Positions 11,831 to 16,385 of a DNA stretch of 33,760 nt are shown here, one piece after another. The position numbers were made by a program, and so were the translations under genes. Positions within the stretch are counted from its first letter, which is position 1; each line of letters begins with the position of its first letter. This stretch comes from Pseudomonadota bacterium (GTDB lineage: Bacteria > Pseudomonadota > Alphaproteobacteria > Reyranellales > Reyranellaceae), in NCBI GenBank assembly GCA_018240695.1, contig JAFEFH010000024.1, forward strand, positions 1 through 33,760. Direction: 5' to 3'. Under the pieces are notes generated by a model. That model had not been told where the DNA came from. It made no database searches and saw only the letters and a program-made list of their open reading frames with translations.

Positions 11831-13009
<1,179 letters not shown>

Positions 13010-13045
13010 GACGGCAATAGCCGGCGGTTGCCGGATAGAGCGGGT

Positions 13046-13093
13046 ATCGGGGGCTCCCTAGGTTCGTGGAATGCGAGCCCAGGAGCCCCCGAT
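13046..13093 (+). promoter_or_regulatory. Inverted repeat that buries the MFS gene ribosome-binding site and start
   Basis: ATCGGGGGCTCC (13046-13057) and GGAGCCCCCGAT (13082-13093) are perfect 12-bp reverse complements with a 24-nt loop. The right arm contains most of the AGGAG Shine-Dalgarno (13081-13085) and the first two bases of the ATG at 13092. In RNA this would be a very stable hairpin blocking initiation. There is no T tract after it, so it is not a classical terminator. A DNA operator is the alternative reading. Confidence 0.65.
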
Positions 13094-14327
13094 GTCTTTC
13101 AAGGAACAGGAAACGATGCTGCCGGCGACCTTCAATCGCCTGGTCTGGTCGAACCTCGTCGCGCAGTCGGCCGAGCAGATCGCGCTCGCCGCCGCGCCGA
13201 TCGTGGCGGTGCTGCTGCTGGGGGCAGGTGAGGGCGCCACGGGCGCGTTGCAGACCGCGCTCACCTTGCCGTTCGTGCTGTTCGCCATTCCCGCCGGCCT
13301 GATGGCCGATCGCATGAAGCGCCGCCGCCTGATGGCCGCGGCCGAGGCGCTGCGCGCCGGCGCGCTGCTGGCCATCCTGCTGGCGATCGTGACGGGCACG
13401 CTCACCCTCTGGCTGCTCGCGCTGCTGGGCTTCGTCGCGGTCTGCGGCACCGTGGTCTACAGCGTTGCAGGCCCCGCGCTGGTGCCGTCGATGGTGTCGC
13501 CGCAGTCGCTGCCGGCCGCCAATGCCCGCATCGAATTGGGACGCACGGTGGCCTTCGCGGCCGGCCCGGCGCTGGGCGGCCTGCTGGTCGGCTGGATCGG
13601 CGCGGGCCCGGCCTTCGGGTTTGCGGCCGCGCTCTCCATCGTCGCGGTCGTCCTGCTCTCGGGCATCGTCGAGCCGGCGCGCGAGCCGAAGCCGCGTCGC
13701 CATCCCTGGCAGGAGATCAAGGAAGGCGCCTCGTTCGTCTTCCATCACGAACTGCTGCGGCCGGTCTTCGTCACGCAATTCATCTTCAATACCGCCTGGT
13801 TCCTGATCCAGTCGGTGTTCGTGCCCTATGGCGTGCATAAGCTCGGCCTGTCGGCGGCGGGTATCGGCATCGTGCTCGGCACCTACGGCATCGGCATGGT
13901 GGTGGGCGCGCTGTGCGCGACCCGCATCCTGCGGGTCGTCTCCTTCGGCACCGTCGTGGGCCTCGGCCCGGTGGCCGGGCTGATGGCCGCCATCGTGATG
14001 GCGCTGACCACCGTGTTCCCGACGCCGCTGCTGGCGGGCCTCAGCTTCTTCCTGTTGGGCGCCGGTCCGATCCTCTGGGTCATCAGCACCACGACCTTGC
14101 GCCAGTCGGTGACGCCGCCCAGCCTGCTGGGCCGAGTCTCGGCCATCAACATCATGGCCTATGGCGCCCGGCCGCTGGGTGCGGGCCTCGGTGCCCTCGT
14201 GGGCGGCCTCTACGGCGCGGAGACCTGCCTCTATCTCGCGGTCGCGGGCTTCGCGATCCAGGCGCTGGTCATCTGGATGTCGCGGGCCGTCGCCTTGCCG
14301 CGCCAGCCGGAGATGGCCTGCGACTGA
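13092..14327 (+). CDS. Major facilitator superfamily transporter (drug-exporter-like)
   Basis: 411 residues with about 12 hydrophobic segments. The loop 2-3 signature GLMADRMKRRRLM (about 69-81) is the MFS motif A, and the central cytoplasmic loop EPAREPKPRRHPWQEIKEG (about 196-214) divides the two halves. It resembles the MFS_3/EntS-like group of proton-driven exporters; the substrate is unknown. ATG 13092 is chosen because AGGAG lies 6 nt ahead; ATG 13071, in the loop of the inverted repeat, would add seven residues and avoid the hairpin. It lies between phaA and phaB on the same strand, 41 nt before phaB. A link to PHA metabolism is not established. Confidence 0.85.
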   Translation: MSFKEQETMLPATFNRLVWSNLVAQSAEQIALAAAPIVAVLLLGAGEGATGALQTALTLPFVLFAIPAGLMADRMKRRRLMAAAEALRAGALLAILLAIVTGTLTLWLLALLGFVAVCGTVVYSVAGPALVPSMVSPQSLPAANARIELGRTVAFAAGPALGGLLVGWIGAGPAFGFAAALSIVAVVLLSGIVEPAREPKPRRHPWQEIKEGASFVFHHELLRPVFVTQFIFNTAWFLIQSVFVPYGVHKLGLSAAGIGIVLGTYGIGMVVGALCATRILRVVSFGTVVGLGPVAGLMAAIVMALTTVFPTPLLAGLSFFLLGAGPILWVISTTTLRQSVTPPSLLGRVSAINIMAYGARPLGAGLGALVGGLYGAETCLYLAVAGFAIQALVIWMSRAVALPRQPEMACD

Positions 14328-14368: not shown

Positions 14369-15094
14369 ATGGCCGGAAGAGTTGCACTGGTGACGGGCGG
14401 CACGCGTGGTATCGGCGCGGCGATCTCGCGGATGCTGAAGCTGCGCGGCTACAACGTCGCCGCCAACTACGCGGGTAACGACGTGGCGGCCGCCGCCTTC
14501 AAGGACGACACCGGCATCGCCGTCTACAAGTTCGACGTCAGCGACTACGAGGCGGTGAAGGCCGCGATGGCGCAGATCGAGAAGGATCTCGGTCCCGTCG
14601 AGATCGTCGTCAACAATGCCGGCATCACCCGCGATTCCACGATGCGCAAGCTCGACCGCGGCATGTGGGACGCCGTCATCGACACCAATCTCGGCTCCTG
14701 CTTCAACGTCTGCAAGGCGGCGTGGGACGGCATGAACGCGCGCGGATTCGGCCGCGTCGTCAATATCGGTTCGATCAACGGCCAGGGCGGCCAGTACGGC
14801 CAGGTCAACTACGCCGCGGCCAAGTCGGGCATCCACGGCTTCACCAAGGCGCTTGCCCAGGAAGGCGCGGCCAAGGGCATCACCGTCAACGCCATCGCGC
14901 CGGGCTACACCGACACCGACATGGTCTCGGCGGTGCCGCCCAACGTGCTGGAGAAGATCGTGGCCAAGATCCCGGTCGGACGGCTCGGCAAGGCCGACGA
15001 GATCGCGCGCGGTGTGCTGTTTCTCATCGCGGACGATGCCGGCTTCATCACCGGCTCGACCCTGTCGATCAACGGCGGCCAGCACATGTACTGA
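14369..15094 (+). CDS. phaB: Acetoacetyl-CoA reductase
   Basis: 241 residues, a short-chain dehydrogenase. It reduces acetoacetyl-CoA to (R)-3-hydroxybutyryl-CoA with NADPH, giving the PHB monomer. The cofactor motif is GGTRGIG (10-16) and the NNAG motif lies at about 82-85. The catalytic S135, Y148 and K152 lie in NIGSINGQGGQYGQVNYAAAK. PGYTDTDMV (about 178-186) and the ending GSTLSINGGQHMY are typical of PhaB. A GGGAGG site (14358-14363) precedes the ATG. A TAGAGT box at 14336-14341 may be its -10 element. It could also act as FabG, but the PhaB-type ending and phaA nearby favour PHB synthesis. Confidence 0.92.
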   Translation: MAGRVALVTGGTRGIGAAISRMLKLRGYNVAANYAGNDVAAAAFKDDTGIAVYKFDVSDYEAVKAAMAQIEKDLGPVEIVVNNAGITRDSTMRKLDRGMWDAVIDTNLGSCFNVCKAAWDGMNARGFGRVVNIGSINGQGGQYGQVNYAAAKSGIHGFTKALAQEGAAKGITVNAIAPGYTDTDMVSAVPPNVLEKIVAKIPVGRLGKADEIARGVLFLIADDAGFITGSTLSINGGQHMY

Positions 15095-15168: not shown

Positions 15169-15567
15169 ATGCCCAAGCTCGTCGCCTACAAGGACATGAA
15201 CCCGCGCGCGAAGGCCGTGGTCGACGGCATCGCCCGCGCCCGCAGCATCAAGCCCGACGAGATCAACAATGTCTGGAAGGCGCTGGCCAGGCATCCCGAC
15301 GTGATGGAGCGCTTCGCCGACGAGCTGAAGATGGCGATGGGACCGGGCAAGCTCGATCCGCTCACCAAGGAGTTGGTTTATCTCGCTGTATCGATCGCCA
15401 ATCAGTGCGACTACTGCATCGCCTCGCACACCGCGATGGCAGCGAAGAAGGGCATGACCGGCGAGATGCATGAGGAGTTCATGGCGGTCGTCCTGGCCGC
15501 GCAGAAGGGCAACAAGATTGCCTCGGCCTACCGCGTGCCGGTCGACGCGGCCTTCGAGGAGAATTGA
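15169..15567 (+). CDS. AhpD-like / carboxymuconolactone decarboxylase-family protein
   Basis: 132 residues, all-helical. The active-site motif is CDYCIASH (C80, C83, H87), the CxxC...H of AhpD-type alkylhydroperoxidases. Helices before (LTKELVYLAVSIANQ) and after (HEEFMAVVLAAQKG) match the CMD fold. Such proteins are peroxidase partners or have unknown redox roles. The ATG at 15169 is preceded by GGAG at 15159-15162; an ATG four codons earlier (15157) is possible. Its stop lies 2 nt before the next gene, so it is cotranscribed with the tam-like gene. Confidence 0.85.
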   Translation: MPKLVAYKDMNPRAKAVVDGIARARSIKPDEINNVWKALARHPDVMERFADELKMAMGPGKLDPLTKELVYLAVSIANQCDYCIASHTAMAAKKGMTGEMHEEFMAVVLAAQKGNKIASAYRVPVDAAFEEN

Positions 15568-15569
15568 TC

Positions 15570-16385
15570 GTGGCCCTGAGCCCTGCCGCCGCGTCGACCA
15601 AGTGGGATGCGAACCTCTATCTGAAATTCTCCGATGCGCGCATGCGCCCCGCGATCGACCTGATGGCCCGGCTCGACCCGGCCTCTGGTCTACCGGCGGG
15701 CCGCGCGGTCTACGACCTGGGCTGCGGCGCCGGCAACATCTCGCGCCTGCTGGGCGAGCGCTTTCCCGGCACGCCGGTGATCGGCATCGACTCCTCGGAG
15801 GAGATGCTGGACAAGGCGCGTGGCCAGACCGCGGCCGGCGCGCATGTCACGTTCGAGAAGGGCGATCTCGCGCGTTTCAAGCCCTCGACGCCGCCCGCCA
15901 TCCTCTACAGCAACGCCGCCTACCAGTGGCTGCCGGGCCATATCGACATGTTCCCCGGCCTGATGCAGTGCCTGCCCTCGGGCGGCCAGCTCGCCATCCA
16001 GATGCCGCGCAACCACGACTCGCCGTCGCACGTGCTGATGCGCACGGCGGCCGAGGCGGGTCCGTGGAAGGAGAAGCTGAAGGGTGTCGGCGGCATCTCG
16101 CGCGTCGAGGAGCCGTCGCGCTACTTCGACGTACTGAAGCCTGTGTCGGCGGAACTCGACGTGTGGGAGACGATCTACCAGCAGGTGCTGACCGGCCAGG
16201 ATCCGGTGGCGCAATACACGTCGAGCACGGGCTTGCGTCCGTTCCTGGAGGCGCTCACGCCCGACGAAGGCAAGGCGTTCTACGAGACCTATGCCGCGAT
16301 GATCGCCAAGGCCTATCCGACGCGGTCCGACGGCATCACGCTGTTCCCGTTCCGCCGCCTGTTCATCGTGGCGCGCAAGGCGTGA
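15570..16385 (+). CDS. tam: Trans-aconitate 2-methyltransferase
   Basis: 271 residues. It transfers methyl from SAM to trans-aconitate, a by-product that inhibits aconitase in the TCA cycle. The opening KWDANLYLKFSDARMRPAIDL (about 11-31) is characteristic of Tam. The SAM motif is YDLGCGAGNISRLL (48-61), then GIDSSEEML (72-80) for the acidic ribose contact. NAAYQWLPGHIDMFPGL and QMPRNHDSPSHVLMR follow, as in E. coli Tam. The GTG at 15570 is chosen because GAGGAG (15556-15561) lies 8 nt upstream; a TTG at 15564 is too close to that site. It overlaps ggt by GTGA. Confidence 0.9.
   Translation: MALSPAAASTKWDANLYLKFSDARMRPAIDLMARLDPASGLPAGRAVYDLGCGAGNISRLLGERFPGTPVIGIDSSEEMLDKARGQTAAGAHVTFEKGDLARFKPSTPPAILYSNAAYQWLPGHIDMFPGLMQCLPSGGQLAIQMPRNHDSPSHVLMRTAAEAGPWKEKLKGVGGISRVEEPSRYFDVLKPVSAELDVWETIYQQVLTGQDPVAQYTSSTGLRPFLEALTPDEGKAFYETYAAMIAKAYPTRSDGITLFPFRRLFIVARKA

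Follow-up and report, generated by a model that had tools for sequence, protein, structure and literature searches.

A start-masking hairpin nested in a predicted Ada-type promoter is a probable lock against read-through expression of an MFS exporter gene

In the ROSE and fourU RNA thermometers the Shine-Dalgarno (SD) sequence is sequestered in a hairpin at the 5′ end of the mRNA, while in the insertion sequences IS10 and IS50 it is the read-through RNA that folds over the transposase start, which the element's own transcript does not do. For the phage T4 genes e (lysozyme), soc, 49 and I-TevI, a hairpin occupies the ribosome-binding site when the RNA is a long early transcript, the region that codes for the 5′ strand of this hairpin holds late promoters, and lysozyme is lowered about 100-fold by the hairpin (PMC3014915). 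At the level of the promoter, the Ada regulon of E. coli and P. putida is defined by the Ada box AAT(N)6GCAA, in which AAT constitutes the A box (PMC3788762, PMC4437013).

Here we analyzed a stretch of 33,760 nt from a genome of the alphaproteobacterial family Reyranellaceae (hereafter the window), in which a hairpin covers the start of mfsA, a gene for an MFS exporter that lies between phaA and phaB (Table 1). In our assessment this hairpin is probably a read-through lock that silences RNA derived from phaA and is nested in an inducible promoter, predicted to be of the Ada type. It is a real, conserved element, and most likely a variant of the device known from T4, placed in a new setting. 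As in T4, the stem would hide SD and AUG in RNA that enters from upstream, and the predicted promoter of the gene itself sits in the 5′ half of the hairpin and would give transcripts that lack this strand. The T4 genes differ in their viral early/late timing, their mapped 5′ ends and their measured 100-fold effect, whereas the present case concerns a chromosomal promoter class of the stress type at two unlinked loci, with transcription starts that are predicted only. The likeness to IS10 and IS50 lies in the protection from outside transcription; insertion sequences, however, can insert anywhere, whereas mfsA has a fixed operon neighbor.

Table 1 Features of the mfsA locus (positions of the window; all on the forward strand)
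Feature	Position	Strand	Basis or remark
phaA (acetyl-CoA acetyltransferase)	11831..13009	+	ORF; Thiolase_N/C Pfam matches; presumed source of read-through RNA
AAT block, the "A box" of Ada operators	13016..13018	+	Constant distance to the next block in the compared leaders
CGGATAGAG block, predicted -35/activator contact region	13032..13040	+	Common to ada and the second MFS family
Hairpin 5′ arm	13046..13057	+	Inverted-repeat and fold evidence
CTAGGT, predicted -10, in internal loop and inner stem	13058..13063	+	Near-fixed spacing in mfsA, mfsB and ada
Inner stem-loop	13061..13079 (13061-13067 / 13073-13079)	+	7-bp stem; compensated in relatives
Predicted transcription start, in terminal loop	13071	+	7 nt past the -10; inferred from the position of the -10
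Shine-Dalgarno AGGAG	13081..13085	+	GGAG retained in aligned orthologues
Hairpin 3′ arm, overlapping the greater part of the SD and the AT of ATG 13092	13082..13093	+	Repeat and fold
mfsA, MFS exporter gene	13092..14327	+	MFS_3 / MFS_1 Pfam matches; ATG 13092 by orthologous starts
phaB, co-directional, downstream	14369..15094	+	ORF; short-chain dehydrogenase Pfam matches

The two arms, ATCGGGGGCTCC and GGAGCCCCCGAT, are exact reverse complements over 12 bp with 24 nt between them, which confirms the perfect hairpin of the original prediction, and both the sequence and the fold bear out that the 3′ arm overlies most of AGGAG and the AT of the ATG. When folded as RNA, the repeat grows into an outer stem of 16 pairs with a 7-bp stem inside it, and the leader segment reaches −39.4 kcal/mol (z = −5.2 against the shuffled leader). 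Chance would give 0.75 perfect 12-bp inverted repeats with a loop of 3-60 nt per window, against two that were found, the other one at 15540-15599; taken alone, the 12-bp repeat is thus near the chance level and proves little, so that the comparison among relatives must decide. The hairpin is nevertheless not accidental, as seen from the z of its leader and from its conservation and compensatory pairing in orthologues. We rejected the possibility of a genome-wide repeat: the genome of the window holds a single full copy of the element. ATG 13116 was considered as an internal start of mfsA, as the alignment in the protein search began at residue 8-9, and was likewise rejected in view of the orthologous SD and ATG at 13092; it is not conserved among orthologues. 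The additional in-frame ATG at 13071, which had been put forward as an alternative start in the loop, is present in the window and was unseen in orthologous loops; it coincides with the predicted transcription start, and a leaderless start at this position is possible in the species of the window.

The leader of mfsA contains a series of promoter-like blocks at near-fixed spacing, AAT-N13-CGGATAGAG-N~19-CTAGGT. Across the genus these blocks are common to mfsA, to mfsB (an MFS family of ~36% identity) and to the unlinked gene ada, which was identified by its Ada_Zn_binding and HTH_18 matches. Specifically, AAT-N13-CGGATARNG followed by a -10-like TA element occurs upstream of ada (37 leaders), mfsA and mfsB, and the strict form of AAT-N13-CGGATARNG has only two sites in the genome of the window, namely those of ada and this exporter. 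The third block varies, with CTATAT in some ada copies and CTAGAA or CATAGA in mfsB. Since CTAGGT is retained in those mfsA loci where the hairpin is weak (L010, L013, L041, L044), the hairpin does not explain the conservation of this block. The promoter scan found no match to the sigma-70 -35/-10 consensus, and the -35 is non-canonical. In ada and mfsB, GGATA and the ATG are separated by 38-40 nt with little variation, the ATG lying shortly past the third block and having no obvious SD, an arrangement that would fit leaderless mRNAs. By the same distance from GGATA, the transcript of mfsA is predicted to start near 13071; a start in the loop implies that the gene's own mRNA would be without the 5′ arm.

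On the basis of this arrangement, we propose that RNA entering from phaA would carry both arms, fold, hide SD and AUG of the exporter and hence probably not be translated into it, phaA being the presumed source of such RNA as the co-directional neighbor, with its stop codon 36 nt upstream of the hairpin. The exporter's own promoter (AAT / CGGATAGAG / CTAGGT) would start RNA in the loop, at ~13071, which without the 5′ arm would have a freer SD and could be translated, and the exporter would thus be made only when its own promoter fires. As the promoter class is common to ada, alkylation damage is the most likely signal, presumably acting via the Ada activator. In computed folds, SD accessibility in the window is 0.00 for the read-through RNA and 0.68 for the RNA that starts in the loop, and the sequestration of SD and AUG in the longer transcript was found by fold and accessibility for the window as well as for relatives. 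The computed SD of the own RNA is only partly open (~0.1-0.5) in several mfsA orthologues, and for two of them (L043 and L044) the accessibility is predicted to change in the opposite direction.

The hairpin could also act as a switch in the gene's own leader, which we hold to be unlikely. Transcription would then start upstream of 13046, e.g., from a -10 formed by GGATAG, and the stem would be opened by temperature, a ligand or the ribosome. Such an mRNA would have the hairpin at its 5′ end and both SD and AUG beneath it, and GGATAG resembles a weak -10; however, the spacing between AAT and GGATAG is unfit for a -35/-10 pair, the TA-rich block looks like a -10 and is near-fixed in mfsB and in mfsA copies with a divergent neighbor and no strong hairpin, and ada and mfsB keep the ATG distance and lack of an obvious SD that leaderless starts would have. 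Within the window, no Rfam covariance model of a riboswitch or RNA thermometer family was matched at the gathering threshold, and the locus further differs from ROSE and fourU in its very GC-rich stem and in the predicted promoter inside the hairpin. The original prediction had suggested a translational switch that must be opened (thermosensor, ligand or ribosome-coupled); this is probably wrong, given the -10-like element inside the upper hairpin, from which transcription of the gene itself is expected to start in the loop, so that its mRNA would never include the 5′ arm. Judged from the same layout, a thermosensor or a ligand switch appears less likely than the read-through lock.

For the comparison among relatives we used those genomes of the genus with a close mfsA match (16 out of 65, that of the window counted in), plus named MAGs; three named relatives were found, of which two are MAGs that carry the title Enhydrobacter aerosaccus. 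Of the 16 distinct same-genus mfsA leaders, all but one retain the element, and the exception (L042) has a different gene context without pha neighbors and without the promoter blocks. The pairing of the arms was assessed using an arm-swap test, in which the 5′ and 3′ arms of all leaders were combined in every way and own partners were compared with permuted ones (20,000 permutations). Own partners paired better in mfsA (Z = −3.2, p = 7.5 × 10−4, leaders cut in the loop) and in ada (Z = −6.4, p at its lower limit of 1/20001), and more weakly so in mfsB (Z = −1.7, p = 0.045), phylogeny not being modeled in any of the three. The test was run twice with different cuts: in the first version the leaders were divided at the -10, which split the inner stem, and mfsA showed no signal (p = 0.32), while the result for ada stands with both cuts. 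Individual leaders illustrate the compensation. For example, the outer stem in L036 and L039 is rebuilt from A-U and G-U pairs (GAGGATTCC / GGGAGTTCTT) ahead of a GTG start, and in L040 the inner stem is swapped on both sides (GGTTGCC/GGCAACC). Compensatory changes in homologous 5′ regions, the search for which accompanied the original prediction, were therefore found, and with the conservation of the structure, seen in both the arm-swap test and the alignments, they support a stem that hides the SD and the start codon, as expected for a start locked against read-through. Some mfsA leaders (L037, L006, L008) fold only weakly when compared with their shuffled sequences. The arms slip by one base between species, and for this reason a single-register consensus structure was not used.

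The same design recurs at ada, which is unlinked to the exporter. Most ada leaders have a long hairpin with the -10 in its loop and with the ATG and the next codons in its 3′ arm, built from different letters in different genomes, as in GTTGGGTCATGGTGC-tttgatg-GCGCCATGACCCAAC (L095) and GGTCATGACGCC-tatatg-GGCGTCATGACC (L127). Folding is strongest in ada (mean z −4.2), followed by mfsA (−2.8) and mfsB (−0.3), and in the computed folds the start region of ada has an accessibility of 0.13 when the RNA reads through versus 0.88 when it is the gene's own, leaderless RNA. As for the possible source of read-through, 32 of the 37 ada genes sit 4-66 nt behind a co-directional gene that ends like a DUF1127 protein, and in the genome of the window the gene upstream of ada is a DUF1127 domain match. 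A small co-directional gene with this domain immediately upstream of ada was observed in most genomes of the genus (L045:1226-1468 and loci L085-L132).

The recurrence at ada also bears on whether the palindrome acts as DNA, either as the operator of a repressor or as a cruciform round the -10 that controls promoter opening, which we consider improbable. The inverted repeat does flank the -10 in both ada and mfsA, and short repeats are found in some mfsB promoters too; however, the arms of ada are unlike those of mfsA and also differ among ada genes (GGGTCATGGTGC vs GGTCATGACGCC), so that no arm sequence common to the sites, as a palindromic operator would have, was found between ada and mfsA or among species. 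Complementarity is preserved despite this divergence, in part by tolerated G-U pairs, and mfsB has the same promoter blocks with no excess folding. The DNA operator, the other option of the original prediction, is hence disfavored.

We also compared the direction of the neighboring genes. Wherever phaA was seen, mfsA is co-directional with it, whereas mfsB, with its mean z of −0.3, runs against phaA and phaB in all loci that show them. MFS leaders next to divergent genes have a weak hairpin or none. Many genomes of the genus (L014-L034) have mfsB between phaA and phaB in this opposite orientation, with the same blocks. Among the mfsA leaders, the mean z is −3.4 for the 11 with no intervening divergent gene and −0.7 for the four with a divergent neighbor (one-sided Mann-Whitney p = 0.003), which is an association rather than an independent test, since the four represent one or two lineages. 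For L006, where the contig end cuts the upstream gene, the locus was scored as co-directional via its close relative L037. Two of the loci with a divergent neighbor still have phaA farther upstream on the same strand.

With its GC-rich stem 36 nt past the phaA stop, the hairpin might serve as a terminator or attenuator of phaA transcription with incidental overlap of the SD. This is very improbable, as no U-run follows the stem, the terminator scan found none, the sequence tail past the stem is not conserved, and the hairpin of ada reaches into the coding sequence. Finally, template switching at quasi-palindromes can produce perfect arms and paired changes without selection and could mimic compensatory changes, and the 12-bp repeat is near the chance expectation per window, yet functionless repeats perfected in this way are the least credible explanation, given their recurrence over the translation starts of two unlinked genes that belong to the same promoter class, the absence of the hairpin in mfsB, and the G-U pairs, which would argue against such an origin of the compensation.

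The assignment of the promoter to Ada was based on its operator and on the Ada protein. The A box AAT is fixed by our search pattern, yet it is also present in nearly all mfs leaders that were found by protein similarity. The GCAA B box at 6 nt past the A box is absent in the mfs and ada leaders of the genus, and AATN6GCAA was found upstream of ada where H115 and R118 are retained, in several other alphaproteobacteria (e.g., L148, L154, L158). In the two Ada proteins of the genus that were examined, the A-box contacts R45/R71 are kept and the B-box contacts are replaced (H115 by T/A, R118 by K), while position F114 is variable among relatives in any case. When L145 and L146 are compared with L147-L174, the loss of the B-box contacts goes with the absence of GCAA, a possible change of operator specificity. 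The locus is therefore akin to the Ada regulon of E. coli and P. putida in having its blocks at ada itself and in keeping AAT and R45/R71, and differs from it in lacking GCAA, in the replaced B-box contacts, in the presence of CGGATAGAG instead, and in an MFS exporter as part of the presumed regulon. From the blocks at ada, the AAT and R45/R71, control of the exporter by Ada appears likely, and the promoter of the genus should not be classed as a canonical Ada box. Our literature search found no paper on Ada in this genus. We see about an even chance that the genus builds read-through locks into those alkylation-response promoters that have a co-directional upstream neighbor, with the operator of Ada re-specified in the same lineage (loss of the B-box contacts, gain of CGGATAGAG) and an MFS exporter recruited to the regulon.

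If this is true, the 5′ end of the mRNA would record the state of a stress promoter whose -10 is nested in a start-masking hairpin, and translation would obey this promoter alone. The device of T4 (and of insertion sequences) would extend to a chromosomal DNA-damage response, where it recurs at unlinked genes and is apparently tuned to the direction of the neighboring gene, and would give compact genomes a simple means to keep genes under tight control downstream of active operons. A further prediction is an unrecognized Ada-type regulon with an exporter and an altered operator. The same blocks were observed ahead of a glutathione S-transferase gene (L057:1501-1560, genome G001), a plausible extra member of the regulon. 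Related blocks also precede a small protein gene starting with MSKEQENK or similar (L064, L111, L135), with a different start spacing, and extra AAT/CGGATA blocks occur before small DUF1127-like genes (L102, L110, L137), of which the product of L102 is a DUF1127 match.
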